A DNA stretch of 64,000 nucleotides, from NCBI RefSeq assembly GCF_964355755.1, contig NC_092677.1:11988601-12052600 (forward strand), read 5' to 3'. Below are positions 16,496 through 48,248 of this stretch, in pieces. Each line of letters starts with the position of its first letter. Within the stretch, counting starts at the first letter, position 1. The DNA is from Antedon mediterranea (lineage: Eukaryota > Echinodermata > Crinoidea > Comatulida > Antedonidae). The notes under the pieces were generated by a model. That model was not told where the DNA came from. It saw only the letters and a program-made list of their open reading frames with translations, and searched no databases. Both the position numbers and the translations under genes were made by a program.

Positions 16496-17797
16496 TTATT
16501 TCTCTTTTGTCGTGTGTTTTGAAAGATGAATCTTCAATGTACCTTTCTCTTTGAATTTCTGTCCGCAATATTTGCATATATACAGCATCTCATCCGTATG
16601 AATCCTCAAATGCACCTTTAAATTACTGTTAACGTTAAACTTCCTTCCACAAAAGGCGCATTCATATGGTGTTTCTCCGGTGTGTATTCGCAAATGTCGT
16701 CGTAGATCACTATTGTTACTGAACTCCTTCCCACAATACTCGCATTGAAATGGAACCTTGTTCGTTTTTCCATGACGTTCATTTGGTTTCTCCCCGGTGT
16801 GTGACCTCAAATGAACTTTTAAACCACTATTATGGATAAATTTTTTTCCGCAGTATTCACATTGGAAAGGAGTTTCTCCCGTGTGAATTCGTAAGTGCGT
16901 CTTCAAATGGCAGCTATGATTGAATTTCTTTTCGCAATATTCGCATTTGAATGGTTTCTCAGCAGAATGCATTTTTATATGCGCTTTTAAACTTCCGCTA
17001 CGATTAAATTTCTTCCCGCAATCTTCACACTCGTACGGCGTGTCTCCTGTGTGAAGTCTCAAATGTGCTTCTAAACTAGCACTCTTATTAAATTTCTTTC
17101 CGCAATATTGACATCCGAAAGGTGTCTCTCTCGTATGAGTTCTCAAATGCACCTTTAAATTACTTTTCTGGTTAAATTTTTTCCCACAGTGTTCACACTC
17201 ACATGCAACTTCTCCTGTATGTATCCTCATGTGCACTTTTAAATTACTGTTAACGTTGAATTTTTTCCCGCATAGTTTACACTCATACGGCATCTCTCCC
17301 GTATGTATTCGCATATGTCTTTTCAAATCACTACGTTGATTTAACACCTTTCCGCAACTTTCACACTGAAATTTTATTTTCCCAATCTTTCCTGGCTGGC
17401 ATTCTATCGGCGGTATTCCTTTTGGTAATATCTTCCTATATATTGTTAACTCTTGAGTTTGAATATCAGGTGTTATTTTCCTAGATTCAAATGTTGTATC
17501 ACCACCTGCGTGAATTCTCAAATGAGCTTCTAACTGGAATATATTGTTAAATTTCTGGCTACACTCTTCGCATTCATAACCATGAGTCTCTCGTTTATGC
17601 ATTACCACATGAGTTTCTAAATCATCTTTATTATTGAATATCATTCCGCATTGTTGACACTGAAACTGATTGACTTCAGCATGTAATCCCATATGTGTTT
17701 TAAGCTCATTTAACTCAAGTTTTATCCCGCAGTGTTCACATTTGTATTTCATTCTCTTTGTGTATACTTCAGAATTGTCCTTTTGGTTAATATTCAT
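16496..17797 (-). CDS. C2H2 zinc-finger protein with 13 fingers, intronless
   Basis: Single-exon gene of 433 aa. Thirteen C2H2 fingers are visible (C-x2-C-x12-H-x3-H): three at the N-terminus (about residues 19-92), a linker of about 50 residues without fingers, then ten more with one longer gap (EKPNERHGKTNKVPFQ) between the tenth and eleventh. Many linkers are of the TGE(K/T)P type, the canonical DNA-binding linker. No KRAB, BTB or SCAN domain is present, as expected outside vertebrates. It is probably a sequence-specific nuclear DNA-binding protein; target and function are unknown. Fingers 5 and 12 share the helix sequence NVNSNLKVH, indicating internal duplication. The start chosen is the first ATG of the open frame; a second ATG lies 16 codons in, just before finger 1. 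All cysteine/histidine ligands appear intact. Confidence 0.9.
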   Translation of the reverse strand: MNINQKDNSEVYTKRMKYKCEHCGIKLELNELKTHMGLHAEVNQFQCQQCGMIFNNKDDLETHVVMHKRETHGYECEECSQKFNNIFQLEAHLRIHAGGDTTFESRKITPDIQTQELTIYRKILPKGIPPIECQPGKIGKIKFQCESCGKVLNQRSDLKRHMRIHTGEMPYECKLCGKKFNVNSNLKVHMRIHTGEVACECEHCGKKFNQKSNLKVHLRTHTRETPFGCQYCGKKFNKSASLEAHLRLHTGDTPYECEDCGKKFNRSGSLKAHIKMHSAEKPFKCEYCEKKFNHSCHLKTHLRIHTGETPFQCEYCGKKFIHNSGLKVHLRSHTGEKPNERHGKTNKVPFQCEYCGKEFSNNSDLRRHLRIHTGETPYECAFCGRKFNVNSNLKVHLRIHTDEMLYICKYCGQKFKEKGTLKIHLSKHTTKEK

Positions 17798-21700: not shown

Positions 21701-24700
21701 TGACAATGCTCATTTCTATAGATAAGAGAGAGATTTGATAATAAAGACTCGGTTTTTCACTTAAGAACTGCTTATTAAACACAGTAATCCCATGGGGTGA
21801 TTGCTTGCAAGTGTAACATTGTGGTCATTTTATTGTTCCACTTCAGGGCTGCTGGCTGCATTGTCGGGGAACTACTATCCCATAAACCATTACTACCTGG
21901 AAAGGCAGAGTTGCAACAGATTGAGATGATAGTCAATCTACTTGGTACGCCGAATGAAGGTATTTGGCCGGTTAGTGTAATTCTTATTCTATTATTACTA
22001 AACCAGGGGCTGATTTCAAACAGAATATACCAGGTCAACAGTTGTATAAACTACTGTAGACATATTACACATATATTTACAGATACAAACACAAGCATAC
22101 TCCTGTTAAACATGCCATATACCTTGTTGTAATCCGATTGGAAGGTATTTCTATCGCTTGACTAACGTTTCAAAGTTAAAATTATATGTAGGGCAAAACA
22201 TCTAATCACTCCCTGACGCAAAGCGGCAAAACTACAATTACAATCCGGTTGGTGCAGTACCCGCTGCTTACTTGGGCTCGAATCTAACCACTAGCCATCA
22301 GCGCAAGCTCGGTGGTCTAGAGGTATGAACGCCAGGCTAGTGATCTGGAGGTCGTGGGTTTGAGTCCCACCCGAGAAATCAGGTAAAATGTACTTATGAA
22401 AACTACCGAGTTATATCAGTGGTACATCACAGTTAGGTATATGAGGGTTAAATGATCATATGACCACTAAGAATACAGTATGCCTATTAACTTTATCTTC
22501 ATTCTAATATAAATGATGTATAATGTACCTCTCGGCACTATACATTCATTTATAGATTTGTGTATACTTTTTGATTCCTGAACCTTAAACTCATTATAAG
22601 ACGGTGCCTGTCTATTGGTACCTGCTAGTATATATAGACGGTGCCTGTCTATTGGTACCTGCTTGTATATATAGACGGTGCCTGTCTATTGGTACCTGCT
22701 AGTATATATAGACGGTGCCTGTCTATTGGTACCTGCTAGTATATATAGACGGTGCCTGTCTATTGGTACCTGCTAGTATATATAGACGGTGCCTGTCTAT
22801 TGGTACCTGCTAGTATATATAGACGGTGCCTGTCTATTGGTACCTGCTAGTATATATAGACGGTGCCTGTCTATTGGTACCTGCTAGTATATATAGACGG
22901 TGCCTGTCTATTGGTACCTGCTAGTATATATAGACGGTGCCTGTCTATTGGTACCTGCTAGTATATATAGACGGTGCCTGTCTATTGGTACCTGCTAGTA
23001 TATATAGACGGTGCCTGTCTATTGGTACCTGCTAGTATATATAGACGGTGCCTGTCTATTGGTACCTGCTAGTATATATAGACGGTGCCTGTCTATTGGT
23101 ACCTGCTAGTATATATAGACGGTTCCTGTCTATTGGTACCATATATACTAGCAGGTACCAATAGACAGGAACCGTCTATATATACTAGCAGGTACCAATA
23201 GTCTATTGGTACCTGCTAGTATATATAGACGGTGACTGTCTATTGGTACCTGCTAGTATATATAGACGGTGCCTGTCTATTGGTACCTGCTAGTATATAT
23301 AGACGGTGCCTGTCTATTGGTACCTGCTAGTATATATAGACGGTGACTGTCTATTGGTACCTGCTAGTATATATAGACGGTGACTGTCTATTGGTACCTG
23401 CTAGTATATATAGACGGTGACTGTCTATTGGTACCTGCTAGTATATATATAAAAGGCAAACTATAATAGGAGTTTTACTGCAAATGTGTTACCTGGTTAG
23501 ATTGTGAGAATTATCTGAACTCAGTGGGTGAGTGGCCGAGCGGTTAAGACAGTGGAACCGTAATCACGTAGCCATAACATCGGCATGTGTTCGAGGCTCA
23601 CTCACTCCATGGTTCTGGTGGTAGAACGAGTCTTCTCGGATAAGGACTATAAACCGTAGGTCCAGTGTACACAACTTGCTCGTGTGCACTTTAAAGAACC
23701 TAGTACATCTTTCGAGACGAGTAGGGGGTTACCCCGGTGTATTAGTACATCACAGCCACTGATCACCAACTGGACCCTCTGGGAGATCAGTCTTTGACTG
23801 AAGAGGTCACCCAGTATAAAGATAAAACAAACAAACAAACAAACAATAAAAACCAGACTCTCAGAAACTTTCCCCAAAATTAGAATTTTGAACAATGTTC
23901 AACACTAATATTCTAAAACACAACATTTGGACTAGGCCAAGATCCGATGTCTCCGATCCGACGAGAGTCAATTAGAACCAAATTGGAGATGTTTGGCTAT
24001 CCAAATCTTAATTGGTTAAACTCACTATTAGGTGACAAACTAATTAATTGTGCTCGTCAGTTTCTCTAATGAGCAGATTTTAATTATTTCAGGTGTTAAT
24101 TAGATGACATGACAATTAGTGTCTAACTCTAAATATTCCTTTGTTAATAATTAAAACAGATGGGAAAACAGTTAAAGAACTTTCACTAATGAGTCGATTT
24201 TAATGGTTTAAACCGTTAATTAGATGACATGCCAAATTAGTGTTTAAATATTAGTATTCCTTTGATCATAACTGATTAAAATAAAGATCAAATCAGTAAA
24301 CGTTTTCATTATGCGAGGTGTTGGCAATAGCCAGAAAGTATACAGATTTATTTTACCAAATAACATTCATGGGCATTTAAGTAACTGGAATTATCATAAA
24401 AAATCAGACATTAATAGCATCTGCAGTGAGTTCTATAAAAACTTCCAAGATGTTTAACGAAACCGAAGAATTTCGCTTCATATGTTACCTGCCTGTGGGA
24501 ATTGCTACACTCGTGTTTCTAATAACCTTAATTGTCCTTTTTGGAAATTGTACTGCTATTATTTCAGTTATGTTAACAAAAGACTTGCAAAAACCGTGTT
24601 ATATCATTCTAGCAAGTGTCAGTGTTGTCGATCTATTCACAGCGTTTTGGACAATCGTGGGACTAATCCACTGGCTGTCCACGGGACAATATTATTTCAC

Positions 24701-27700
24701 CGAAGCTGCTTTGGGTAACCTCGTATTTGAAATGCTGTGTCAACTAGTCGCATTTTCATACTTTCACCACATTATTCTGACATGCGAACGGTACCTTGCT
24801 ATTCTCTATCCATACAAATATGTTGCGCACGTAGACAATTGTGTTGTTGGAAAAGTTTTAATTGGATCCTGGGTATTGTGGATTTTCATGGGCTTCATTT
24901 GTGTTATTGTAACAGATTCTGCGCTAGATTACTTAGTCGCTGTGCAAGTATTTTTTTTTGCTGTATGTATCCCAGTCTATGGTTGTCACACTTGTGTATA
25001 CCTTGAAGCCTGCAGGCAGTTTCGTCAGATAGAATCTGCGAAGAACAACTTCAAGGCAGTGCGCACAACAGCGTCTATTCTTGGTGCGTTTACTATATCT
25101 CTACTGCCTTACTTTGGTAATTTTATCTATGAACTTTACTACGACCTCTTGGACAAACCGGTTTGTTCATATAACTTTTACATGACAGTGGTGTTCTTAT
25201 ACTTGAATTGCGCAATGAATCCGGTCATATATGGAATTGTGAATCAATCATTCCGTAACTCTTACATTAAATTGTTCAAAAGAATTGTTTGCAAGCGATT
25301 TAACCGAATTGAAAACAATGTGATAATATAAATAATAAAATATGTACAGGAGATATTTGGAGTGCATACTCCTATGTGTATGTATGCCTATTCTTAAAGG
25401 TACTTAATCTGTGTAAATTATATAAAGTAGTTTGTAATATCTTCTGATATACGTTTAACGGTTGTTTAAAAAAAAGTAATACAATACAAGCTTTGTGCTA
25501 GTACAGTTAAAGGATTTTTCATGGCGGATAAGCAACCATATATGGATTGGAACTCCGCAAACATAGGTGATTCATTTTGGGTGTTTTTGCCCTACCTTTC
25601 ACTGAGGTGAAGGTGATGTGACATAGATCTCAAACTTATGTTCTTTTTTATTATATAATTAATAACAATATTCGTGAAATTAATGATCTTTGGCATCATC
25701 ATTGATTCTCATTTATTTTGGAAGGCTCATTATAATTATATTATTTCAAAAGCAAATCGTATGTTAGGCCTGGTTAAATGTGTTTAGTTTCCATTGCAAT
25801 TTGTATGTAAAACGGCCTCTTTATTTAAGTATTGTTTGTAGTTACCTAGAATACTGCTCTACTGGCTGGTCACCCAATTATAAAACAAACAAGTTGAGCG
25901 AGTTCAGCATAGGGCAACTCAATTTATTTTAAATAATTTTGAAGCTGATTACAAAATAATGCAGACTTCAAACATGCAATTTATTAGACTTATGTTATAG
26001 GTTATAAATCTTATTTCTTTTTAAGTTATTCAAATCTAATATAATTAGGCTAATACTGACAATTTATTTAATATTCATAATCCACAACGTGTTACTCGTA
26101 GCTCTTCTTCTGTTGGTACTCTTTTTGATATTTGTCACTTCAGAACAGAATCTTCTTTTCAATCATATATCTCACGTGTTACCAGAATTTGGAGTAAATT
26201 ACCAGGTTAAATTCGTAACTTAGATATATATGTTAGTTCTTTTAAAACCAAATTATTAAATTATCTCAATACTTATTTTCTAAATAATTTTGATGTTGAA
26301 AATGTTTGTAGTTGGTAGTTGGTCGCTTTTAATTGTACTGAATGTAATTATTTTTTTGGTTTATTTATGTGCACTGTTCTGGGTTGACCAACTAGCATAG
26401 ATATTTAGCACTTGTTTGGTCTTTCCTTGCCTTTTATATTTCGTATTGTCATTTTCTTTGTAAATCCCGTTTGGTCGTACAGAAAGATTTAGATCTTCAC
26501 CAGTCCCTTTTTTAGTCCGACTCATTAATGATGAATATTGAATAGGCTGGCACTATTTTAACTTACAGGTGGACCAATTTTAATGTGGTAAATTATTATT
26601 ATTTTTTTTTTTTTTTAAACTAGTTTTACCTTTTATACATAATGTATTTATATATTTTTATCAAATTTTGTAAAATACTACTTTTCAGCCTTTTGGCTGC
26701 CGTTGTATTTTGATGTCTTTTTATGAATAAATATACCTAAATGAATTGTATATGGCAGAAATTTAATAAAATAAATAAATTATATTTCAGTGTCTATTTT
26801 GTTTTAATTTTAAAAGCAAGCAAATTTTAAATACAAATTTGCAAATAATATTAGTGCTCACTGTAAAATGAATGTTTGAAACTACATGCAGTCACAAAAA
26901 AAAGCAGAATCTCGTTAATATATTAATTTTTAATATACATCTGTATCTAGGTTCTTGTTTTGTTTGTGTAAACATGAGCAAGTATTGTACTTACCGCAAG
27001 TAACACGGCATGTAGCACTGCCGCTATAACTGCAGCTGCTGTCTTGATATTGCTAATGACCTGAGTGGCCTAATTGTAACGTAGGAAAATGGCCGAGAAT
27101 TACCGAACGCAGCGTTCGGCAGTTGCAAAGAAATTGGTCTAAAAAACCCATTTTAATTAAAAGATCCCCCAGCTCCAACGGCGCTAATATCGGACTTGCG
27201 GTTTAGGATAAGGTAGAGGAACAAATCTTGGCTTAGTGCTACATATAGATGTTTGCTTCTTTGAAGATATTTTTAATTTTAAATTAAATACACATTTTCA
27301 TTAATTACAGGGGTTTTCTGAACTTCTGTCTATAAGCATTTATGCTTGGCCTCTACCCAGGTGAACCAAATTTAAATGCTTTCCTGGGATACAAGTAAAC
27401 AAGTAATTACACGTTTTTGTCCCACATTTATTTCTTTAATGGAATATATATGTACTATAATACACAACATGACATGAAACACAAAGATGAGATAATGTCT
27501 AGACTGAAAAATATCTACCATGACATTGCTTTCGGAACATGTTCCAGTCTTAATGCTACACACTCTTCTCTCATAATTAAATACAGTTTCGGAAAATTAC
27601 ATTGGGTAGTACTAATGAAAACTACCGAGTTATATCACAGTTAGGTATATGATAGGTAAATGGTCACATGACCACTAAAGCCTGATTTCCAGTCGACGTT

Positions 27701-30700
27701 GAGTTGCTTTGAATTAACCGGATTCAACGATTTTACAGGAAAAGTGGGTAAAAATAACGCTTTAAAATAGTTAAAATCTGCAATCGTTGAAGTTAAATCA
27801 TCAGTTGTAACTCTAGTATGCATGATTCAGCCAAACTCCATTATATATGCATGCTATATTCTAGTAGTGTAAACATAACTACTGTATACAATTTACACAG
27901 ATTTTTAAATACCTTTAAGAATATTGTCCAAAACTATGTTTAAACAATATTTTTCCATTACATTAACTACAATTGATGCTTTTCCATAACATAAACAACT
28001 AATAATCAATGTGTTACATATTTCTTAAATAAATTCATAAATAAGTCATTTGATTGGACGATTGTAGGTCACATGGCGTGCACTATTAAATGGTCATTTA
28101 ATAGTACTTTTAAGCGTTTGGAAAATATTTTTTATGCTATTGCTTTTGAAATACAACGCACCACCTACAGGTATTTTGTAATTTTGCCGCAAAGATTGAA
28201 TGTTATGACTGAGATGTGTACTAATTGAGATCAAAAAGGCATTTAAATTAGCTTTAGATCATTTGTATGATTTTGATTAATTAATGGGAACATCTCTACA
28301 AGACATGGAATCGTTCAAAAAAACATAATTAGCCTAGATGAGTTCCAGCCTGTTGAAGTTTCGTATTTGGTATTGCTGCCTTTCAGCTTAGCTAGTAGGC
28401 CTAGAGTGTTAGCCCTAGGCTCCTGTACATATTCTATTATTTATATTATCACATTGTTTTCAATTCGGTTAAATCGCATGCAAACAATTCTTTTGAACAA
28501 TTTAATGTAAGAGTTACGGAATGATTGATTCACAATTCCATATATGACAGGATTCATTGCGCAATTCAAGTATAAGAACACCACTGTCATGTAAAAGTTA
28601 TACGAACATGCCGGTTTGTCCAAGAGGTCGTAGTAAGCTTCATAGATAAAATTACCAAAGTAAGGAAGTAGAGATATAGTAAACGCACCAAGAATAGACG
28701 CTGTTGTGCGCACTGCCTTGAAGTTGTACCTGGCAGATTCTATCTGACGAAACTGCCTGCGGGCTTCAAGATATACACAAGTGTGACAACCATAGACTGG
28801 GATAAACTAGTTTGACAAAAAAGTTTGATGTGTCCAAATATGGTAGTGATCTGACATCATCATGTCCATATATGTGCACATCATATTTTTGGGCACATAA
28901 AGTTTGATAGTGTAGACAGAGTTTAACAAGGTTACACATTTGCAGTAAAACTTGATTTTTACCTTTTATATTTAAATTAAATGCACATTTTCATTAATTA
29001 CAGGGTTTTTCGGAACTTCCGCTTCTCGAAAACTATAACCTAAAACAGCAGCCCTACAACAACTTAAAAGACAAGTTTCCATGGTTACCAGCATCTGGCC
29101 TGAGGCTTTTAAACATGCTGTTTATGTATGACCCAAAGAAAAGGTAAATCTAAGTGGTAACTTTGTACTTGTGATTTTAAGTTTGTCCACCAGAAAAAAA
29201 CTTTTTTTTAACAACAATTTTTATTGCGCATCTCAATACGGTACAAATGAATAACCGAAATGAAAGTGTTTTTATTTATGTATGCAATTAATACTTTATA
29301 TGTTTTGTTTGATGTTACAGGGCCACAAGTTTAGAATGTCTCCAAAACTCATATTTCAAGGAACCTCCACTTCGTAAGTATTATTATAATAACATTATAA
29401 TAAATCTATAAATAGATTTTAATTATTGCTTTGATCTTCTCAGCCTTGTACCTATTTTATTGTATTTTAAATATGTTTGCCTGGAAATTTTGTTTTATAC
29501 AGTATTTGAATAAACTTTTAAATGGAATTATATATTTTGTTATACTTTTTATATTATAATGTAAATTTGGCGCAGTTCAGATTTTTCTGCAATGCCACTA
29601 TTTTTAATAAACCAGAAAAAAAAAGTTGAGAGAGGAGTTTTATTTATAAAAATCTGTGTCTTGCCATAGTTGTGATACACTTATTTTGTATTATATCTAT
29701 AATATCACCTACATTCCTGTGGGTCAAATGGCGTTCAATAGAAGGTATTATATAACACCTAAATAAATTCCTGTCATTTGACTGAATGATTGTGGGTCAC
29801 ATGGCGTGCAATGGTACGCACTATTAAACGATAGTTTAATAGTATATGATCTTGTCCATATATTATATGGGCACATCACATTTTTTGTCACATAAATTTT
29901 GATAGTGTAGACAAAGCTTTACTCTATGCTCATCTTTTTCTATTCCAGCTTGTGATCCCAAACTAATGCCAACCTTTCCACACCATAGAAATAAACGAAA
30001 ATCATCACATAGACCAGAGAATAGGTAAATATTTTGAATTGCAGTAATTTACCCAACCAACCATAAAGCTTGGTTCCCACTAGAACGCAACGTAACGCGG
30101 CGACGTATCGACGCTAAGTGCTGTATTGTGTAATCACAAGTGGGAACCGACGACATAACAGTGCTGCAAACATTGCTATGGGAAATCAAATCAGTTTGAT
30201 TTCACGCTAACAACGCTAAGCAAAAGAATACCGAAAAACATAGTACAGCGCATACTCAATAATACGCGGGGTGAACCAGGTCAACGGCATACTAACATTG
30301 ACGCGTAACAAGCAGCTTTGATTACACGCAGGCAGAGGCATACATAATTAAGGGTATTTTGTTACGTTGCATGGGTTGCGTTACGTTTCGTCACTAGCGG
30401 GAACCACGCTTAAGCAATGCACTGATATACTTGCCCTCTGGGTTGCTCCACTTTACATTATGAGTTATGAATTTGTCATCCAGAATTACAGCTCAAATAA
30501 ACATACTTATAATAGTATTTATTTGACAAGTTATTTTAAAATATACATTATTTTTCAGGAGCAAGTAATAAGCACGAGCCCAAAGCAGAAACACCAATAA
30601 AATATACATAAATACATACATTGTAAAAACTGTTTTTCGGCACACTAAAATAATATATATATTTATTTACATGTTAGCAGTTCATAATACAAATTTCTGC

Positions 30701-31951: not shown

Positions 31952-32806
31952 TTACTTTTGTATAATCCTGAAAATAAGTTGTTTAAATGATTTACGAAAA
32001 TGCGACTGCATTACTCCGTAAATGAATGGATTCACCACTGCATTTGCGTTGAATAAGTTAGAAGTGAAATAAAACATAGTTTTGCAACGAATAATGTTGT
32101 AATCAGTTCCTAAGTTAACTGCGTAGAAGATTCCTATTGGTAGAACACAGATACTAAACGCTATCAATATGATGGATGTTATTTTTGCTGCTTTGAAATC
32201 TTTTGTTATCTTATTATGAACAGTTAGTGACGAAATCCTACGCGCAGACTTCCTTGCTTCAAGGTATATCCGAATATGAAAAAATATTACTGTGACATAT
32301 CCTAATACCAACAGTGTTACATTTACTACTAGATTACTATCCGAAGAATAAATGTGAAAATACACAAGTAAACTAAAAAATGGCAGTAAAATACTCCATA
32401 CACAGATAAGAAATAATATAACCGATTTATTGTTGATTTTTATTGTATAGTAGAATGGATAGAATATAGCAAAATACCGTTCTCCTGCTAAGATAATGTG
32501 GTGGACCATTGTCATCACATGTAGAATAGCACCAAAACTGTAAGTTAGCCATCCGTTGGAGGCTCTAAAATTGTATAGTTGTCCCGTAGATCCCCAATCA
32601 AGAGCAACCCATATTCCACGAAATCCAGTCAATGTATCCAAAACCGATAAACTTGCCAGAATGATATAGCACGGTTGTTGAAGTGCGCGAGTGGAATATA
32701 TAGCATACAACACTGCAAGATTTCCAAATATTGTACATGTAGTTATAGCAACCGATAAAACAAAGAAATGTATTGGAAAATCACAATTTGTTTCGTTGGA
32801 GATCAT
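31952..32806 (-). CDS. Class A GPCR, array member 1
   Basis: Intronless, 284 aa, seven transmembrane segments. Landmarks: GN (28-29) in TM1, Asp57 in TM2, ERY (109-111), CVLP (220-223) in TM6, NPFIY (259-263). Position 3.25 is Gly85 and the extracellular loops hold no obvious partner cysteine, so the usual TM3-ECL2 disulfide is absent; the TM6 tryptophan is replaced by valine. N-glycosylation site NET at 4-6. The loss of the disulfide recalls melanocortin, S1P and cannabinoid receptors, but family membership is not established. The start is set at the ATG shared by all paralogues; an in-frame ATG 59 codons upstream has no counterpart in the others. TM4 to TM5 differs most from its neighbours (LLVYFHIYSSDSNLVVN). 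Confidence 0.9.
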   Translation of the reverse strand: MISNETNCDFPIHFFVLSVAITTCTIFGNLAVLYAIYSTRALQQPCYIILASLSVLDTLTGFRGIWVALDWGSTGQLYNFRASNGWLTYSFGAILHVMTMVHHIILAGERYFAIFYPFYYTIKINNKSVILFLICVWSILLPFFSLLVYFHIYSSDSNLVVNVTLLVLGYVTVIFFHIRIYLEARKSARRISSLTVHNKITKDFKAAKITSIILIAFSICVLPIGIFYAVNLGTDYNIIRCKTMFYFTSNLFNANAVVNPFIYGVMQSHFRKSFKQLIFRIIQK

Positions 32807-33885
32807 TGTGTTTTTAGCAGAATAATTTATGTAATTCTTTTTACAACTTCTTAAGATGTTTAGCGTAAACAAATTGAAAGAGGCCGTACTGGAACTGACG
32901 CGTACTGGATACCTGCCAATCACGTGATAACGTTTGATGACTCGGTACCAAATATGTCCACAATCCTCGGGCCTTCTGATCAATCAACTTGGTAGTTTCC
33001 CGTGTCTGAATATTAAAAGCTGTTATTTAGACGGTTATTGGGCCGCCCATTTTTTAAAGATGTTCGTCGTTATCTGCGTAGGCCTAGTAGTGGCAGCAAC
33101 AGTTGTTACAGGAGACTAAACCTTGTTGATTCTTTGAAAATGCTGTTATATAATTGTGTCGACTTCTTCTCTTTAAAAGCTCTTGGCATTTATATAACGT
33201 CACTGTTACTTGGGTCATCATGGCGCTCTTGCCAATCGATTGACGCGCAAACTAAAAATAATTTTAGAATATAATTGACAGATGATATGCAATACTTCAC
33301 AGTAATAACTACATATTATTTGATATTTGAAAATACATAATAACAGTGGAATATGATCACTAATGGCTAATTAAATCACATCACTTATATTGTGTAACGA
33401 AACACCATTTGTACAGGAGTGCAATATAACCACAAAATGTGAAAGAAAGACATTTTCAAAATGATTGACAGAAAATAAATTGACGTGTTTGTATTATATG
33501 CAATATCTATAATCAATCATGTTAAAATTATCGTCCATCATACATTGGCGACCCAACATTTGGATCGGTTTAAGACGGACACAGACATTGTGTCTATTTT
33601 TCCCCAACTTGTTGATTGACCCAAACATTGTGACCACACACTTTATGTTATTTTACCAGACTATTAATAAATATCCCAGACTTATAAAGCGCCTAATGTT
33701 GTGAAACCTATATAGCTCTGTACATACAAACTGGTAGAGGAAAAAACAGCTAAACCCAAACCCTCGTCGCTCATGGTTCAGTCTAAATTGAAACCTGGTT
33801 ACCACCAGTTGTGTCTCGTTCATGCGGGACGCGGGCGCCTCCTTCTTAGTAAAGGAATCTCTGTATGTATTAGTGAACATGTTAT

Positions 33886-34740
33886 TTACTTTTGTATGAG
33901 CTTGAAAACGAGTTGTTTAAATGATTTACGAAAATGCGACTGCATTATTCCGTAGATAAATGGATTCACAACTGCATTTGCGTTTAGTAAATTAGACGTG
34001 AAGTAAAACATAGTTTTGCAACGGATAATGTTGTAATCAGTTCCTAAGTTAACTGCGTAGAAGATTCCAACAGGTAGAACACAGATACTAAACGCTATCA
34101 ATATGATGGATGTTATTTTTGCTGCTTTGAAGTCGTTTTTTATCTTATTATGAACAGTTAGTGACGAAATCCTACGGGCAGACTTCCTCGCTTCAAGATA
34201 AATCCGAATATGACAAAATATTACCGTAACATAAGCTATTGCCAACATTATTAAATTTACCATGAGACCATTATCCGGTGAATAAATTCTTAAATACATA
34301 AGTAAACAGAAGGGTGGGAAAAATGTAATCCATACACAGATAAGAAATATTACAACCGATTTATTGTTGACTTTTATTGTATAGTAAAATGGATAGAATA
34401 TAGCAAAGTACCTTTCTCCTGCTAAGATAGCGTGATGAATCAGTGTCGCCATATGTAATATAGATCCAAAGCTGTAAGTTAACCATCCGTTGGAGGTTCT
34501 AAAATTGAACAATTGTCCAGTAGATCCCCAATCGATAGCAACCCATATTCCACGAAATCCAGTCAATGTATCTAAGACTGATAAACTTGCCAGAATGATA
34601 TAGCACGGTTGTTGAAGTGCGCGAGTGGAATATATGGCATACAACACTGCAAGATTTCCAAATATTGTACATATTGTTATAGCAACCGATAAAACAAAGA
34701 AATGTATTGGAAAATCACAATTTGTTTCGTTGGAGATCAT
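33886..34740 (-). CDS. Class A GPCR, array member 2
   Basis: Intronless, 284 aa, same architecture and landmarks as member 1 (ERY, CVLP, NPFIYG, N-terminal NET). It differs chiefly in TM3 and TM4-ECL2-TM5 (LLMYLRIYSPDNGLMVN), while ICL3, TM6 and TM7 are almost unchanged. The open frame is intact. The upstream block at about 35160-35340 is shared with the other units, consistent with unit duplication including the promoter. Confidence 0.9.
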   Translation of the reverse strand: MISNETNCDFPIHFFVLSVAITICTIFGNLAVLYAIYSTRALQQPCYIILASLSVLDTLTGFRGIWVAIDWGSTGQLFNFRTSNGWLTYSFGSILHMATLIHHAILAGERYFAIFYPFYYTIKVNNKSVVIFLICVWITFFPPFCLLMYLRIYSPDNGLMVNLIMLAIAYVTVIFCHIRIYLEARKSARRISSLTVHNKIKNDFKAAKITSIILIAFSICVLPVGIFYAVNLGTDYNIIRCKTMFYFTSNLLNANAVVNPFIYGIMQSHFRKSFKQLVFKLIQK

Positions 34741-35650
34741 TGTGTTTTAGTAGAGTAAGACAGTTATCTTCTTAAGGTGTTTAGCGTTAATGTGGAGAAA
34801 GAGCCGGTGCATCAGGCCAATACTGAATCTTCTCGCACGTGATATATTTGTAGTCGCTACAACAACTAAGTAAGTCTCTACGCGTAGTACAGATTAAGAT
34901 TTTTTTTAGTCTCGTGCAAACGTGATTCAACAGCTCACTATGTCGATCGGTTGTTCGGTCGGTAAACACTAACTCAAATTTGCGCACGCGACTGTAGCTA
35001 TGTATATGGTCTTGTTGAAGATGCTTGTTGAACTACAGTGAGCAACAGTAGGCCTACAGAGTGACAGTCTTATTTGAATCTTGTTGACCACTTCTGTTAT
35101 TTTTAATATGGTTGTGTTTGGTTAGCTTTCTCTTTATGACATACAATACTTCACTAATAATAAATACTTATCTAATATTAAAGAAACTTTACGACAGTGA
35201 ACTTGTCGTGCACGATCGATAAAATATAATTTTATAAGCTAATACATCTCTTGCGAAATACGGTACCAACAGAAACACAATATTACAATCAAAAATAATT
35301 GTATGATTGACAGAACAAACAAAATTGGCATTTTTACGATATTGTATCAATTGTTTGCACTTTGTATGATCAAGCACATTGGTAAATGCGATTTTAATAC
35401 AAACTGTGGCCATTCAATGTCCAAGTGCAATAGTTGGTATAACGCACAGGCGGATTCACAATTCAATTGTTTAGGTCCTCGACCCGACACCACCCCTCCT
35501 CGATCCTCTATTTCAAATTATGGATCCATTACTATAAAGTTCCACAGAAATTACTCAGGTAAAGTAGTTATAGCCATAACATTTAAATAATGACTATTAT
35601 GATAAACGGGGTGACCAACACCATTTTGTGTACAAGTTTGTGTAGATTAT

Positions 35651-36505
35651 TTACTTTAGTATGAGCTTGAAAATAAGTTGTTTAAATGATTTACGAAAAT
35701 GCGACTGCATTATTCCGTAGATAAATGGATTCACAACTGCATTTGCGTTTATTAAATTAGACGTGAAGTAAAACATAGTTTTGCAACGGATAATGTTGTA
35801 AGCAGTTCCTAAGTTAACTGCGTAAAATATTCCTATTGGTACCAGACTGACACTAAACGCTACTAATATTATGGATGTTATTTTTGCTGCTTTGAAATCG
35901 TTTTTTATTTTATTATGAACAGTTAGTGACGAAATCCTACGGGCAGACTTCCTCGCTTCAACATAAATCCGAACATGAAAAAATATTACTACTACATAAG
36001 CAATTGTAAACATTGTGAAATTTACCATGAGACCATTATCCGGTGAATAAATTCTTAAATACATAAGTAAACAGAAGGGTAGGAAAAATGTAATCCATAC
36101 ACAGATAAGAAATATTAGAACCGATTTATTGTTGACTTGTATTGTATAGTAAAATGGATAGAATATAGCAAAGTACCTTTCTGCTGCTAAGATAACGTGA
36201 TGAATCAGTGTCGCCATATATAATATGGCACCAAAGCTGTAGTTTAGCCACCCGTTAGAGGTTCTAAAATTGTATAGTTGTCCCGTAGATCCCCAATCGA
36301 TAGCAACCCATATTCCACGAAATCCAGTCAATGTATCCAAAACCGATAAACTTGCCAGAATGATATAGCACGGTTGTTGAAGTACGCGAGTGGAATATAT
36401 AGCATAAAACACTGCAAGATTTCCAAATATTGTACATATTGTTATAGCAACCGATAAAACAAAGAAATGTATTGGAAAATCACAATTTGTTTCGTTGGAG
36501 ATCAT
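35651..36505 (-). CDS. Class A GPCR, array member 3
   Basis: Intronless, 284 aa, most similar to member 2, with which it shares LLMYLRIYSPDNGLMVN in ECL2 but not the TM5 residues after it (FTMFTIAYVVVIFFHVRIYV). TM6 reads VAFSVSLVPIG, so even the TM6 cysteine (6.47) is replaced by serine or leucine, unlike the other members. ERY and NPFIYG are intact. Shared upstream sequence lies at about 36715-36970. Confidence 0.9.
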   Translation of the reverse strand: MISNETNCDFPIHFFVLSVAITICTIFGNLAVFYAIYSTRVLQQPCYIILASLSVLDTLTGFRGIWVAIDWGSTGQLYNFRTSNGWLNYSFGAILYMATLIHHVILAAERYFAIFYPFYYTIQVNNKSVLIFLICVWITFFLPFCLLMYLRIYSPDNGLMVNFTMFTIAYVVVIFFHVRIYVEARKSARRISSLTVHNKIKNDFKAAKITSIILVAFSVSLVPIGIFYAVNLGTAYNIIRCKTMFYFTSNLINANAVVNPFIYGIMQSHFRKSFKQLIFKLILK

Positions 36506-37280
36506 TGTATTTTAGTAGAGCAAGTCAGTTATGTGGAGAAAGAGCCTCTACACTAGGCCAATCATACTGAATGTTCTTCTTGGACGTGATATGTTTGTCG
36601 TCTCTGCAACTGAGTATCCGTAAAATGCAGGTTAACATTTTCCTTTTCAAGTTGTTTCTGTACAGCTCTACAGTGTGCAACAGTTCAGAGAGTGACAATC
36701 TTATTTGAATCTTGTTGCTGTTATTTTAAATACGGTTGTGTTTGGTTAGCTTTCTCTTTATTACATACAGTACTTCACTGTAACACGCCTACTTACAAAT
36801 AATAATCTAATATTAACGAAACTTTAGGACAGTGAACTTGTGTCGCTCACGATCGATAAAATGTAATTTTCTAAGCTAATAAATCTCGAAATACTATATC
36901 AACAGAAACACAATATTAAAATCACAAACAATTGTACGATTGACAGAAGAAAGTAAATTGTCATTTTTACGATATTGTATCAATTTCGTGCCTTTTGTAA
37001 TAACTGTGTGCTGCACTTTATATGCCCAAGCACATTGGTAACTGCGATTATTACAAGGTGTGGCCATCCAATGGTCTACAAGTGCAATAGTTGGTAATAA
37101 AGGCACAGGCAGATCCGGAGAGAGGAGAAGGTCCTCTCCTCCACCTAATCCAAACGAAGGTCATGAGCACTTCACTTTACAGTACGATTGTTTAGGTCCT
37201 CGACCCAACACCACCCCTCTTCTATTTCAAAATTCTGGATTCATCCTTGTAAAGTACCACAGAAATGACCAGATAATGAA

Positions 37281-37655
37281 TGAGTGTGGCCGAGCGGTTA
37301 AGACAGTGGAACCGTAATCCATAGCCATAACATCGGCAAGGGTTCGAGGCAATGGTTCTGGTGGTAGAAAAAGTTTTCTTGGACAAGGACTATAAACCGT
37401 AGGTCCAGTGTACATCTGGCTCATGTGCACTTTAAAGAACCTAGTACATCTTTCGAGACGAGTAGGGGGGTTACTACGGTATACTAGTTCATACACACAC
37501 ACTGTCGTAGACAGACGTAATGGCGCCGTAGTTGGCTGCCGATGACACGATGGGACCCTTGGGGGAGAAGAATGTTGTTAATAAGGTGTAACATCTTAGT
37601 CCACGGCGCCTTTGATCACTTGTTGCTGGAATTGGCGCTTTAAAAATTCGTATAT
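37281..37655 (+). mobile_element. tRNA-derived SINE, family 3, copy 2 (GPCR spacer)
   Basis: Same head (GTGTGGCCGAGCGGTTAAGA, GGTTCGAGGC) and body (GGACTATAAACCGTAGGTCC, GTGCACTTTAAAGAACC, CTTTCGAGACGAGTAGGGGG) as the copy at 23521. It extends further, to a 3' part with TGGCTGCCGATGACACGATG and TTGGCGCTTTAAAAATTCG. It lies between array members 3 and 4 and is not seen in the other spacers, so it inserted after the duplication. Confidence 0.75.
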
Positions 37656-37815
37656 ACTATATCTCGAGAGTTAACAAGACCACTGGTTATATTAATAAAT
37701 ACACCACCACTAGAGTCGAATACATACATACATAAAATAGTCACAAACATAACATTTATGTGAATAAATAAACGGGGTGACCAAGATCAGTTTGTGTAAA
37801 GATTTTGCAGATTAT

Positions 37816-38669
37816 TTACTTTAGTATGAGCTTCAAAATAAGTTGTTTAAATGATTTACGAAAATGCGACTGCATTATTCCGTAGATAAATGGATTCACG
37901 ACTGCATTTGCAATAAATAAATTTGCAGTAAGATAGAACATAGTTTTGCAACGGATAATGTTGTAATCAGTTCCTAAGTTAACTGCGTAGAAGATTCCAA
38001 CAGGTAAAACACAGATACTAAACGCTATCAATATGATGGATGTTATTTTTGCTGCTTTGAAATCGTTTTTTCTCTTATTATGAACAGTTAGTGACGAAAT
38101 CCTACGCGCAGACTTCCTCGCTTCAACATAAATCCGAATATGACAAAATATTACTGTGACATATGGTATTCCCAACATTATTACATTTATAATTAGACTA
38201 TTATCTGGTGAATAGATTTGAAAATACATAAGTAAACTGGAGGTGGGCACTAAAGTACTCCACACACAAATAAGAAATATTACAACCGATTTATTGTTGA
38301 CTTTTATTGTATAGTAGAATGGATAGAATATAGCAAAGTACCTTTCTGCTGCTAAGATAACGTGATGTACCATTGTCATCATATGTAGGACAATTCCAGA
38401 GCTGTAAGTTAACCATCCATTACAGGTTTTAAAATCGTATAGTTCTCCAGTAGATCCCCAATCGAATGCAACCCATATTCCACGAAATCCAGTCAATGTA
38501 TCCAAAACCGATAAACTTGCGAGAATGATAATCACGGTTGTTGAAGTGCGCGAGTGGAATATATAGCATACAAAACTGCAAGATTACCGAATATTGTACA
38601 TGTAGTTATAGCAACCGATAAAACAAAGAAATGTATTGGAAAATCACAATTTGTTTTGTTGAAATCCAT
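37816..38669 (-). pseudogene. Class A GPCR, array member 4, frameshifted
   Basis: It aligns end to end with the 855-bp paralogues but is 854 bp long. A single base is missing at the PCYII segment between TM1 and TM2 (about 38528-38533), putting a TGA directly after the proline of LQQP. The first about 45 codons (from ATG 38669, MDFNKTNCDF) and the remaining 239 codons are each otherwise clean, with ERY, CVLP and NPFIYG kept. It is the only member with a cysteine just before TM3 (TCNGW). The break is recent, or could be a sequencing error or a polymorphic allele. Confidence 0.85.
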
Positions 38670-38884
38670 TTTGTTTCAGTAGAGTAAGATCTTGATAAGA
38701 TGTTTAGCGGTAATGTGGAGAAAGAGCCGGTGCATGAAGCCAGTCATACGGAATCTTCTTCTTGCACGTGATGTTTGTCGTCTCTACAACCATGGAGAAA
38801 TAAGTTAGTTCTCCATGCTACAACTAAGTCTCTGTAGTGCAGATTAACATTTTTTTTTTGAAGATGTACAGTTCTACAGTGTGC

Positions 38885-39160
38885 TACAGTTTACAGAGCG
38901 ATAATTTTATTTGAATCTTGTTGAACACTTCTGTTATTTTTAATATGGTTGTTCGGTTAGCTTTCTCTTTATGAATACAATACTTCACTGTAACACCCCT
39001 ACTTACAAATAATTATCTAATATTAATATTTAATTAAAATTTTGTTGAACACTTCTGTTATTTTATGGTTGTGTTTGGTTAGCTTTCTCTTTATGGCATA
39101 CAGTACTTCACTGTAACACGCCTACTTACAAATAATAATTATCTAATATTAACGAAACTT
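38885..39160. repeat. Direct repeat in the GPCR array spacer
   Basis: Two tandem segments (about 38905-39020 and 39040-39150) share TTGTTGAACACTTCTGTTATTTT, GGTTAGCTTTCTCTTTATG, CACTGTAACAC and CTACTTACAAATAAT. Related single copies lie upstream of the other members near 35085 and 36710. It is a duplicated piece of the conserved upstream block. Confidence 0.7.
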
Positions 39161-39396
39161 TACGACAGTGTGGTGAACGATCGATAAAATATAATTTTCT
39201 AAACCTAATACATCTCTGGTGAAACACTACCGTATATCAACAGAAACACAATATTAGAATCACAAATATTGGTTAGGTTTACCAGAAAAAAATGCCACAG
39301 AAATTACCAGATAAAGTAGTTACAAGCATAACATATTATGATAAACGGTGTGAACTCAACATCATTTATTTTCGGTAAAGTTTTTTTGCAGATTAC

Positions 39397-40251
39397 TTAC
39401 TTTAGTATAAATCTCAAACTAAGTTGTTTAAATGATTTACGAAAATGCGATTGCATTATTCCGTAGATAAATGGATTCACGACTGCATTTGCGTTGAATA
39501 AAACTGAAGTTAAATAAAACATAGTCTTGCAACGGATAATGTTGTAATCAGTTCCTAAGTTAACTGCGTAGAAGATTCCAACAGGTAAAACACAAATACT
39601 AAAGCCAACCAATATGATAGATGTTATTTTTGCTGCTTTGAAATCGTTTTTTATCTTATTATGAACAGTTAGTGACGAAATCCTACGCGCAGACTTCCTC
39701 GCTTCAAGATATATTCGAATATGAAAAAATGTTACTGTGACATACGATAATATTAACGTGATTGCATTTATCATTGGAGCATTATCCGCTGAATAAATTT
39801 GAAGATACAAAAGTAACCCGGCTGGTGGTAGTAATATGCTCCATACACAGATAAGAAATATTACAACCGATTTATTGTTGACTTTTATTGTATAGTAGAA
39901 TGGATAAAATATAGCAAAGTACCTTTCTCCTGCTAAGATAATGTGGTGGACCATTGTCGCCATATTTAGAAGAATCCCAGAGCTGTAAGTTAGCCATCCA
40001 TTTGAGGTTCTAAAATCGTATAATTGTCCAGTAGATCCCCAATCGATTGCAACCCATATTCCACGAAATCCAGTCAATGTATCCAAAACCGATAAACTTG
40101 CCAGAATGATATAGCACGGTTGTTGAAGTGCGCGAGTGGAATATATAGCATACAAAACTGCAAGATTACCGAATATTGTACATATAGTTATAGCAACCGA
40201 TACAACAAAGTAAGGTATATGAAAAGTACAATTTGTTTCGTTGAAGATCAT
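39397..40251 (-). CDS. Class A GPCR, array member 5
   Basis: Intronless, 284 aa, the most distal copy and the most different at the N-terminus (FNETNCTFHIPYFVVSVAI) and in TM4-ECL2-TM5 (LLLYLQIYSADNAPMIN, then AITLILSYVTVTFF). ERY, CVLP and NPFIYG are intact; Gly is again at 3.25. An N-glycosylation site (NET) is kept, and NCT adds a second possible site. The open frame is complete. Confidence 0.9.
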   Translation of the reverse strand: MIFNETNCTFHIPYFVVSVAITICTIFGNLAVLYAIYSTRALQQPCYIILASLSVLDTLTGFRGIWVAIDWGSTGQLYDFRTSNGWLTYSSGILLNMATMVHHIILAGERYFAIFYPFYYTIKVNNKSVVIFLICVWSILLPPAGLLLYLQIYSADNAPMINAITLILSYVTVTFFHIRIYLEARKSARRISSLTVHNKIKNDFKAAKITSIILVGFSICVLPVGIFYAVNLGTDYNIIRCKTMFYLTSVLFNANAVVNPFIYGIMQSHFRKSFKQLSLRFILK

Positions 40252-43346: not shown

Positions 43347-44080
43347 GTACAAAAACATTGACTGGGTACAAAAACGGTGGCAGGGTATAAAAACAGTGGC
43401 AGGGTACACAACAGCGACAGGGTACAAAAACGGTGGCAGGGTACAAAATCGATGGCAGCTGGGTACAAAAACAGTAGCAGGGTACAAAAACAGTAGCAGG
43501 GTACAAAAACAGTAGCAGGGTACAAAAACAGTAGCAGGGTACAAAAACAGTAGCAGGGTACAAAAACAGTGGCAGGGTACAAAAATGGTGACAGGGTACA
43601 AAATAGATGGCAGCTGGGTACAAAAACAGTAACAGGGTACAAAAACAGTGGCAGCGTACAAAAACGGTGGCAGGGTACAAAAACGATGGCAGCTGGGTAC
43701 AAAAACAGTGGCAGGGTACAAAAACAGTGGCAGGGTACAAAAACAGTGGCAGGGTACAACATCGATGGCAGTTGGGTACAAAAAAATGAGCAGGGTACAA
43801 AAACAGTGGAGGGTACAAAAACGGTGACAGGGTACAAAAACGGTGGCAGGGTACAAAAACGATAGCAGCTCGGTACAAAAACAGTGGCAGGGTACAAAAA
43901 CGGTGGCAGGATACAAAAACGGTGGCAGGGTACAAAAACAGTGGCAGGGTACAAAAACGGTGGCAGGGTACAAAAACGATGGCAGGGTACAAAAACGATG
44001 GCAGCTGGGTACAAAAACAGTGGCAGGGTACAAAAACGGTGGCAGGGTACAAAAACGGTGGCAGTGTACAAAAACAGCGT
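43347..44080. repeat. 19-bp minisatellite, block 1
   Basis: About 38 copies of a 19-bp unit, GGCAGGGTACAAAAACRGT, with interspersed 22-bp variants that add CTG (GATGGCAGCTGGGTACAAAA). Because 19 is not a multiple of three and the unit has no stop on the minus strand, all three minus frames stay open for over 260 codons. None is a gene. Confidence 0.95.
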
Positions 44081-45799
44081 CACTAATTTTATACAATAGT
44101 TCGCGGGAAAGCTGATTGCTGACCTTATACAGGAATAAATACTTAGTGGTTGTGATATTCCATTTATTTAATTTAATGGGAAAGTATATCTTTCACAAAA
44201 TGACTTAAAATATCTTTGTATGTCAGGCAGTGTTTAAAAGGCTGGAAGGCCCTGGTGGAAGGGTACAAACAGTGGCAGGGTACAAAAACGATGGCAGCTG
44301 GGTACAAAAAAAGTGGCAGGGTACAAAAACAGTGGCAGGGTACAACATTGATGGCAGTTGGGTACAAAAAATGAGCAGGGTACAAAAACGGTGGCAGGCT
44401 ATAAAAACGATAGCAGCTCGGTACAAAAACAGTGGCAGGGTACAAAAACGGTGGCAGGATACAAAAACGGTGGCAGGGTACAAAAACGGTGGCAGGGTAC
44501 AAAAACGGTGGCAGGGTACAAAAACGATGGCAGGGTACAAAACCGATGGCAGCTGGGTACAAAAACAGTCGCAGGGTACATAAACAGTGGCAAAGTACAC
44601 AAACAGTGGCAGGGTACAAAAACGGTGGCAGGGTACAAAAAAAGTGGCAGGGTACAAAAACGGTGGCAGTACAAAATCGATGGCAGCTGGGTACAAAAAC
44701 GGTGGCAGGGTACAAAAACGATGGCAGATGGGTACAAAAACAGTGGCAAGGTACAAAAATAGTGGCAGGGTACAAAAACGGTGACATGGTACAAAAACGG
44801 TATCAGGGTACAAAAACAGAGACAGGGTATGACAAGCAGTGATCTATGGTACAAAAACTTGTGTTGTATACAAAGTGTCTGGGAAAAAAGACGATGACAG
44901 TGGTACAAAAACAGTGGCAGGGTACAAAAACGGTGGCAGGGTACAAAAACGGTGGCAGTGTACAAAAACAGCGTCACTAATTTTATACAATAGTTCGCGG
45001 GAAAGCTGATTGCTGACCTTATACAGGAATAAATACTTAGTGGTTGTGATATTCCATTTATTTAATTTAATGGGAAAGTATATCTTTCACAAAATGACTT
45101 AAAATATCTTTGTATGTCAGGCAGTGTTTAAAAGGCTGGAAGGCCCTGGTGGAAGGGTACAAACAGTGGCAGGGTACAAAAACGATGGCAGCTGGGTACA
45201 AAAAAAGTGGCAGGGTACAAAAACAGTGGCAGGGTACAACATTGATGGCAGTTGGGTACAAAAAATGAGCAGGGTACAAAAACGGTGGCAGGCTATAAAA
45301 ACGATAGCAGCTCGGTACAAAAACAGTGGCAGGGTACAAAAACGGTGGCAGGATACAAAAACGGTGGCAGGGTACAAAAACGGTGGCAGGGTACAAAAAC
45401 GGTGGCAGGGTACAAAAACGATGGCAGGGTACAAAAACGATGGCAGCTGGGTACAAAAACAGTCGCAGGGTACATAAACAGTGGCAAAGTACACAAACAG
45501 TGGCAGGGTACAAAAACGGTGGCAGGGTACAAAAAAAGTGGCAGGGTACAAAAACGGTGGCAGTACAAAATCGATGGCAGCTGGGTACAAAAACGGTGGC
45601 AGGGTACAAAAACGATGGCAGATGGGTACAAAAACAGTGGCAAGGTACAAAAATAGTGGCAGGGTACAAAAACGGTGACATGGTACAAAAACGGTATCAG
45701 GGTACAAAAACAGAGACAGGCTATGACAAGCAGTGGTCTATGGTTAAAAAACTTGTGTTGTATACAAAGTGTCTGGGAAAAAAGACGATGACAGTGGTA
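44081..45799. repeat. 894-bp tandem duplication, including minisatellite blocks 2 and 3
   Basis: The segment from about 44081 to 44905 recurs at about 44975 to 45799 with an exact offset of 894 bp and only a handful of differences, for example GACAGGGTATGACAAG against GACAGGCTATGACAAG. Each copy has a unique approximately 175-bp lead (ATAGTTCGCGGGAAAGCTGA to TGTTTAAAAGGCTGGAAGGC) followed by about 640 bp of the 19-bp array. The near-identity shows a recent event. Confidence 0.93.
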
Positions 45800-46195
45800 C
45801 AAAAACGGTGGCAGGGATACAAAAACGGTGGCAGGATACAAAAACAGTGGCAGGGTACAAAAACAGTCGCAGGGTACAAAAACGGTGGCAGGGTATAAAA
45901 ACAGTGGCAGGGTACAAAAACAGTGGCAGGGTACAAACACGATGGCAGCTGGGTACAAAAACTGGGGCATGGTACAAAAACAGTAGCAGGGTACAAAAAC
46001 GGTGGCAGGGTACAAAAACAGTAGCAGGGAACAAAAACGGTGTCAGGGTACAAAACAGTGGTCTAGGATACAAAAACTTGTGTTGTATACAAAGTTTCTG
46101 GGAAAAAATAAGATTGCAGGGATACAAAAACGGTGGCAGGGATACAAAACAGTGGCAGGGTACACAAAATTGTGTTGTACTAAAACAGTGGCAGA
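45800..46195. repeat. 19-bp minisatellite, terminal block
   Basis: Continues the same unit with increasing degeneracy (one-base insertions such as GGGATACAAAAACGG). It includes a third, diverged copy of the array-interrupting sequence (ACTTGTGTTGTATACAAAGT) at about 46075-46100. Confidence 0.9.
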
Positions 46196-48248
46196 GTAAA
46201 AAACATACACACTTATTTGTAGCATTTTACGAAAAAAAGTATCAGAGTATTCATCAACAGAGCTAAACAAATGAAGGAAAGGGTCAGAACATGTGACTCT
46301 GGCAGATAACATAACTTTACTTTTCAAGAGTGATAAGAAAAAAGGAAACATATTATATTCAATTTGTTAACCTAAATATATCTTTCATTTTTAATTTAAG
46401 ATAATTATTTACATGATGATAAAACTTTTGAATGTGTATTAATTTAAATTGGTTATCATCACTTGGCGTTTATTTTTGTTTATATGTTTATTTTAGGGTT
46501 CTTTCATAGGTCAATCATTTTTTTCCATTAAAACTTAAAAATTGGCTATTTGTAGTTTATTGTATTAATCTTTATGGTTTATTTTACATCATTTATATCT
46601 CAATGTATATTGCATTATTGTTCTTATCTTTGATTAAATATTAATATTATGTACTGTAGTAGGCCTATACACATTTTAAAAAATGCTCAACAAAGTCTCA
46701 AACCACATAAAATCTAAAAGTTGAAACTGAATATTTAATGGCCCATGAGAATTCTAGGTAGCCTGCGCAAAGGTCATCGAGGCCAAACTTAAGAGAATGA
46801 CTCAAGCTCTTCCATGCGAATCATCTCAGGTTAGACCAACCTCCAGTGGGCAGGACTTGTAGTTAGAACTTGTGGCTCAAATGACACTCCAGGGCAATAA
46901 AATCACAATAACTTACAAAGCACTGACAGTAATTGCTTGTCAAAACCAAATTGCCTAACCGTAACGCTAACGTAGCCTGGTCCGCGTAATGATTTACAGA
47001 ACATAATTGGCATTGACCTCGAAAATATGATACGAAACAATACTTTTACCAATTTTATTTAATATTGCGAACTATAATAAGTAAACTTGTTCGATAAAAC
47101 CTAATTATCTAATGTACAATCACGACACTTAATTGCGTAACGAAACACCATAATAAACAGAAGAACAATGTATTACCACAAATTGGTATAACCATAATTT
47201 CCGATGATTGACAGACAGAAATTGACATGTTTAGGTCGACTTCATCTCCTGCGTAAAACAATGTTCTCGGTATGCAGAGCTTTGAGGCTTGCCTACAAAT
47301 GCTATGTTACAACAATACTTTTGTGAAAAGGAGAGTTTGGAGAAACGGATGGATTTTTAAAATATATTTTGTGGGTGTGTCTCACATTCATATAACGTTA
47401 AGATATACGATTATTAAACTGTGCCTACACTATAGTTTCTCTCACGAAGCTATTAAATAAATTCAATTATTTTCATTCAAGTTTATAAGGCCCTACCACG
47501 TTTCCAATTTTTGAATTATGCACACATAACAAATAATTGCACAGCGCCATCACTGTACTAAAACTATATATTTTAACTGTAATTCAACTAAATTCAACTG
47601 AATTATGTTTTATAATATTTAAACACATTTCAAAATGTGTGTATCTATTTATTCTTTTGTGCATTTGTAAACCTAGTAATTTGTCAATTCAACTCTAGCA
47701 CCCTCTATTTTGTTCTGCAACTCATGATTTTTACCCAAACTCATTAATGCAATCTTCTAATAATGTAGGCCTATGTTGTTTACTGTATCATATGTTTTTG
47801 TGTATTTTGTTCTTCCTTTTGGATGCACCTTTCACTGTTTTACTGTTTACTTTAGCATATTATTGACTTTACCTTGCATTTGGTTACTTATGCATAAAAA
47901 ATGTTCAAAGAGACTACCTAATTTTCTTCACTTAAAAATCGATCAATGATCAAGCAATTTTTCATTGGAATGGAAGGACGGCACATTTTTATAACTTAAA
48001 TAATTAACGCTTATTGCTTCACAATTGTACTTGTTGAAGAAGGTGATAACGCCGCTATCGGTCGTGGAATTTCAATTGTTTCATTTTATACGAGTAAGGA
48101 GGAAAAGTAATTTCAATCAAACGCTATGATCAACGCTTTTTACTACTACGGAACGCGGTTTTGGTTGAAGTGTTTCTTTCTTCAACGCGTGTTGTGTTTA
48201 GTCACTGAGTCGTGCTAAAGGCATGTAGTGAGTAGGTAGTTCGCTAAG
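46196..48248. other. Region between the minisatellite and the LIM gene
   Basis: No coding region supported. 46953-46995 is an inverted relative of 40750-40794. 47100-47230 is a diverged copy of the sequence upstream of GPCR member 1 (GTAACGAAACACCAT, GATTGACAGA, AAATTGAC.TGTTT; compare 33395-33490), which suggests the GPCR unit once extended here. The last few hundred bases are the presumed LIM-gene promoter and 5' UTR. Confidence 0.45.

Follow-up and report, generated by a model that had tools for sequence, protein, structure and literature searches.

A tandem array of class A receptor genes in Antedon mediterranea with a fast-evolving block predicted to lie in TM4 and TM5

The window analysed here is a stretch of 64,000 nucleotides from the crinoid Antedon mediterranea (G000:C8:11988601-12052600, in a genome of 354 Mb on 18 contigs, in which mitochondrial COX1 gave no match). 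It contains five copies of a receptor gene, arranged head-to-tail and separated by spacers as follows.

31952..32806, minus strand: receptor copy 1 (c1), intact ORF of 284 codons
32807..33885: spacer upstream of copy 1, unalignable to the other spacers except for a short stretch near the ATG that is common with copy 5
33886..34740, minus strand: receptor copy 2 (c2), intact, 284 codons, 74 bits against Pfam 7tm_1
34741..35650: upstream spacer of copy 2, which aligns with the copy 3 and copy 4 spacers at about 73-81% identity, with indels
35651..36505, minus strand: receptor copy 3 (c3), intact ORF of 284 codons, sister to copy 2
36506..37815: upstream spacer of copy 3, a homologue of the copy 2 and copy 4 spacers
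37816..38669, minus strand: receptor copy 4 (c4), broken by a 1-nt deletion at codons 46-47
38670..39396: upstream spacer of copy 4, a homologue of the copy 2 and copy 3 spacers
39397..40251, minus strand: receptor copy 5 (c5), intact ORF of 284 codons

The coordinates confirm the head-to-tail order given in the first-pass annotation, with all five copies on the minus strand, while the spacing of about 1.6-1.9 kb given there has to be widened, as neighbouring starts are 1934, 1765, 2165 and 1581 nt apart (1.58-2.17 kb). The same annotation described five intronless receptors of 284 codons. This holds for the absence of introns from the coding part, which aligns as a single continuous block from ATG to stop in all five copies (an intron in the 5' UTR is possible), but only four of the genes are intact. 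Copy 4 has CCGTGATTATC where the other copies have CCGTGCTATATC and is one base short, which brings a TGA in frame; its mechanical ORF comprises 239 codons from a GTG start. Since the frame beyond the deletion remains open, copy 4 is a gene that was broken recently, or a broken allele, and a sequencing slip is less likely because the stretch is not a homopolymer.

The window holds a number of other features. A further single-exon class A receptor at 24426-25331 (plus strand, ATG at 24462) is 37% identical to the array; its nearest gene lies at C5:1439885 (L015), and both have G at 3.25. An inverted copy of the second half of this receptor, truncated at its 5' end and likely a pseudogene, lies at about 28441-28800 (minus strand). 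A minisatellite at 43347-46205, with about 146 copies of the 19-nt unit GTACAAAAACAGTGGCAGG, gives rise on both strands to several spurious ORFs, 165-272 aa long. The palindrome TAGGCCTA, which is common in echinoderm DNA, occurs 25 times in the window against 0.5 expected by chance. A C2H2 zinc-finger protein of 433 aa with about ten fingers is encoded by one exon at 16496-17797 (minus strand), and a Pro/His/Ser-rich open frame of 503 aa at 48249-49760 (plus strand), which has no Pfam match, may be a single exon from a larger gene.

Against the Pfam profile 7tm_1 an array protein scores 74.4 bits (cut-off 30.5) with the whole profile covered, and the class A anchors N29 (N1.50), D57 (D2.50), E109-R110-Y111, W137 (W4.50), P223 (P6.50) and NPFIY 259-263 (NPxxY) were all found. 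The predicted structure of an array receptor matches GPCR chains and class A receptors with Z about 22; this AlphaFold model is of low confidence (pLDDT 59) and was relied on for the fold and the helix ends only. Judged by profile, anchors and fold, the array genes are class A (rhodopsin-type) GPCRs. Cys is missing from position 3.25 (G85) and throughout ECL2 of the array proteins, so that the TM3-ECL2 disulfide is lacking, and the CWxP toggle reads CVLP, without the W. The C3.25-ECL2 disulfide and CWxP are common in class A but not universal, and class membership is possible without them. The proline at the tentative position 5.50 is also missing, from all copies except the broken copy 4. In the low-confidence model, helices span residues 126-153 and 155-193, leaving an ECL2 of only a few residues. 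The variable block at residues 138-172, previously placed across TM4, ECL2 and TM5, is therefore predicted to correspond to the outer halves of TM4 and TM5, with almost no ECL2 between them.

The matches of an array protein to solved structures (octopamine beta2 receptor, E 7e-14; MC2R, E 4e-13; D2, E 2e-12) are about equal, so no subfamily name can be assigned. The genes might be melanocortin-like or other MECA-type hormone receptors and not chemoreceptors, a reading that we consider very improbable. It would account for the lack of Cys at 3.25, the near absence of ECL2 and the mostly missing P5.50, and MC2R provides a full-length match in a single stretch; MC2R, MC4R and MC5R resemble the array in their short ECL2, in lacking the TM3-ECL2 disulfide and in a significant sequence match. 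However, the match is no better than that to aminergic receptors, as octopamine and dopamine receptors score about the same, and the array is tandem and multicopy. Many tandem copies or broken copies are unusual for hormone receptors, and their occurrence here in several arrays, together with a broken copy, would be odd for genes of that kind.

The intact copies carry LxxPxYxxxxxLxxxD, that is, five of the six residues of LxxPxYxxxxxLxxxDxxxxxxxxP, the motif used for echinoderm odorant-receptor-like (OR-like) receptors, of which echinoderm clades retain only part (PMC7042368). The OR-like, surreal-GPCR and ApOR receptors of sea urchin, starfish and sea cucumber are like the array in being class A, mostly single-exon genes in tandem arrays and expanded lineages, in most of the OR-like motif of ICL1-TM2 and in overall omega values below 1, and they are expressed in sensory organs (PMC7042368, PMC5442662). 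The array differs from them in that its motif ends in W66 in place of P and that the C3.25-ECL2 disulfide is lacking. Vertebrate odorant receptors likewise form tandem clusters with birth-and-death evolution, conversion mosaics and hypervariable pocket residues in TM3-TM7 (PMC1995454), but KAxxTxxxH, the ICL3-TM6 motif of vertebrate-type odorant receptors, is absent from the array proteins, and ECL2 of the array is very short and without Cys. Tandem GPCR arrays with birth-and-death evolution are already well known in echinoderms and vertebrates, and the chemosensory-type gene arrangement suggested earlier for this locus is supported.

Divergence is distributed unevenly along the gene. With ten pairs pooled (NG86), divergence peaks in the block of residues 138-172 (dN 0.315, dS 0.465, omega 0.68), compared with dN 0.060 and dS 0.230 outside residues 128-172, so the block singled out by the first-pass annotation does vary most. 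A second variable block, at about residues 81-105 (ECL1/TM3; dN 0.171, dS 0.600), had been left out. The motif quoted as differing between the copies exists in four distinct versions among the five, with copies 2 and 3 both carrying LLMYLRIYSPDNG. ICL3, TM6 and TM7 had been called almost identical, which is correct for the protein but not for the DNA: silent divergence is 0.23 in ICL3-TM6 and 0.28 in ECL3-TM7-tail, so that the conservation of the 3' half is a matter of protein-level constraint and not of DNA identity. Silent divergence is lowest in codons 1-40, 106-137 and 173-210. In codons 211-284 it reaches 0.30-0.35 and exceeds the mean of 0.25 for the gene, which contradicts the proposal that gene conversion has homogenised the 3' half, and this was rejected.

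For the likelihood tests the best tree, ((c2,c3),(c4,c5),c1), was used. Whole-protein omega is 0.37 in this array, showing purifying selection overall. In the partition analysis, omega is 0.585 in residues 138-172 and 0.287-0.299 elsewhere (0.585 vs 0.299, p = 0.036; 0.03-0.04 over tests), in support of a locally fast-evolving TM4-TM5 block; omega within the block does not exceed 1 by either likelihood or NG86, and the test against omega = 1 gave p = 0.067. A comparison of M1a with M2a found no positively selected class in this array (p = 0.87), at the low power that five sequences provide. Codon models also raise the silent rate in 138-172 by 2.3x (p = 0.003). In codons whose amino acid is invariant there is no such rise, however, with silent changes in 3/10 codons of the block and in 48/181 elsewhere, so the silent signal rests on codons that also change the amino acid, and we do not rely on it. 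For the same reason, a raised mutation rate or greater age of 138-172 was rejected. In residues 81-105, the amino-acid-invariant codons show silent changes in 7/11 cases vs 44/180 elsewhere (p = 0.009), for a region picked post hoc.

Relatives of these genes occur in further arrays of the genome.

C9:3.100-3.107 Mb: related receptor array, five copies, close relatives
C2:38.585-38.590 Mb: related receptor array, three copies, close relatives
C7:20.966-20.983 Mb: related receptor array, more distant relatives

In trees, the copies of the C8 array described above, and likewise those of C2 and C7, form one clade each with strong support, while four of the five C9 copies group in a single clade and the position of the fifth (L013) is uncertain. 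Apparent internal stops in three of the C9 copies proved to be the regular stops at the ends of these genes. This grouping by array indicates that each array expanded in place, and the earlier view of the C8 copies as young paralogues is supported. One receptor of the C7 array (L019, G000:C7:20972249-20973148) has NLVVY for NPxxY; its neighbours retain NPxxY, several of them with EKY for ERY.

In the three related arrays, omega in 138-172 compared with elsewhere was 0.698 vs 0.321, 0.586 vs 0.253 and 1.471 vs 0.411. It is thus higher in the block in all four arrays (combined p = 0.0007) and significantly above 1 in none, the value of 1.47 belonging to the most distant of the four and being indistinguishable from 1. 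A still more distant array with short ECL2 (C9:0.55 Mb) gave 0.40 in the block vs 0.23 (p about 0.04), with divergence saturated, and a control array with normal ECL2 (C3:4.81-4.89 Mb, 19 copies) gave 0.60 vs 0.49, which is not significant. The control (G000:C3:4.81-4.89 Mb, L035-L043) is a tandem array of its own, made up of about 19 class A receptors whose normal ECL2 bears Cys. As the rise in omega recurs in three other arrays, the faster TM4-TM5 block is characteristic of the receptor family and not of the C8 locus.

Several results point to short-tract gene conversion between array copies, for which support is moderate, so that the earlier suggestion of some conversion stands. PHI gave p = 0.007 with a window of 50 nt and 0.032 with 100 nt, and was not significant with 200 nt (p = 0.47). 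Copies 2 and 3 share 29 consecutive identical polymorphic sites in codons 142-163 (p = 0.0002), a silent run in codons 27-84 is common to copies 1 and 3 (p = 0.002; global silent-run p = 0.009), and codons 173-230 favour a tree different from the best one. The spacers upstream of c2, c3 and c4 are about 72-82% identical to each other, with indels. Those upstream of c1 and c5 cannot be aligned outside the short stretch near the ATG, despite a coding silent divergence of about 0.25, a combination that would fit short tracts within coding DNA, with replacement of a flank as the alternative.

It is conceivable that conversion alone produced the whole pattern, by homogenising the conserved parts and skipping the variable block. 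Silent divergence, which in this array rises 2.3-3x in the variable blocks, and the contrast between c1/c5 spacers and coding sequence are in its favour. Yet the amino-acid-invariant codons of 138-172 show no silent rise, the other three arrays have the same rise in omega without a significant silent rise, and the longest silent-invariant run stays within the length expected by chance (p = 0.74). Moreover, the strongest tract, that of copies 2 and 3, sits inside the variable block, where conversion therefore spreads variants and does not spare them. We regard conversion as the sole cause as improbable.

A somewhat better candidate, which we nevertheless hold to be rather unlikely, is diversifying selection for ligand recognition on TM3-TM4-TM5, acting on a few pocket positions and masked by many neutral ones. 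Pocket facing was examined with class A numbering, a tentative assignment of 5.50 and a list of generally known pocket positions, the model being too poor for a direct check. Non-conservative changes occur at the usual pocket positions 3.33 (S/A/I), 3.36 (H/Y/N), 4.56, 4.57 and 5.39 (G/N/S/A), so that a recognition role of these positions is possible, and within arrays the pocket positions of the outer helix halves are slightly more variable than others (3.13 vs 2.45, p = 0.085). M2a is nominally significant in the C9 array (p = 0.036), sites 84, 89 and 158 are flagged in single arrays, and a review reports zebrafish odorant receptors with adaptive sites in TM3 and TM4 (PMC1995454). Against this, block omega is below 1 in three of the four arrays, M2a combined over the four gives p = 0.089, no inward bias is seen in TM5 (4.83 at pocket positions, 4.78 at others), and no significant helical moment, hence no pocket-facing periodicity, was found in the three helices tested. 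A study of sea cucumber OR-like receptors reported that no clade contained a class with omega above 1 (PMC7042368). The diversifying selection suggested by the first-pass annotation is therefore not supported by our tests, whose power with five sequences is low. It had named two results that would speak against it, omega uniformly below 1 in 138-172 and equal divergence there and in TM6-TM7; the former was observed, but divergence between the two regions does differ.

Variation on every face of the helices fits loose constraint, and we favour the explanation that this is probably an ordinary cluster of odorant-receptor-like class A GPCRs evolving by birth and death, in which the outer parts of TM4 and TM5 are loosely held and conversion acts in short tracts. 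A single-exon class A gene with odorant-receptor-like features would have expanded in place via unequal crossing-over. TM1-TM2, ERY, ICL3, TM6 and NPxxY, which make up the intracellular and core signalling parts, are kept fixed, while TM4 and TM5 in their outer halves, and TM3 to a lesser degree, are less tightly held and drift faster, as the divergence data show. Short conversion tracts may shuffle pieces among the copies, and copies also die, as copy 4 did by frameshift. Some results weigh against this explanation: the 2.3x silent rise (p = 0.003) is not predicted by simple protein constraint, though it is missing from invariant codons, omega reaches 1.47 in the most distant of the four arrays, and PHI lacks significance with the 200-nt window. 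Overall, the pattern looks like weaker constraint together with gene swapping and is no proof of an arms race.

The array copies probably encode external chemoreceptors, and the block would influence which chemicals are detected; if small ligands are bound, the outer TM4-TM5 region would be where copies come to detect different things. A bolder proposal, to which we give little credence, is a receptor subfamily without the TM3-ECL2 disulfide and nearly without ECL2 that tunes ligand choice via outer TM3, TM4 and TM5, with conversion moving ready-made specificity blocks, as perhaps between copies 2 and 3. A literature search with strict terms found no papers on TM3-TM5 hypervariability. Tandem receptor arrays being well known, the useful addition made here is the comparison of several independent arrays within one genome, in which the same TM4-TM5 block is faster each time, and positions 3.33, 3.36, 4.56, 4.57 and 5.39 are candidates for ligand tests.
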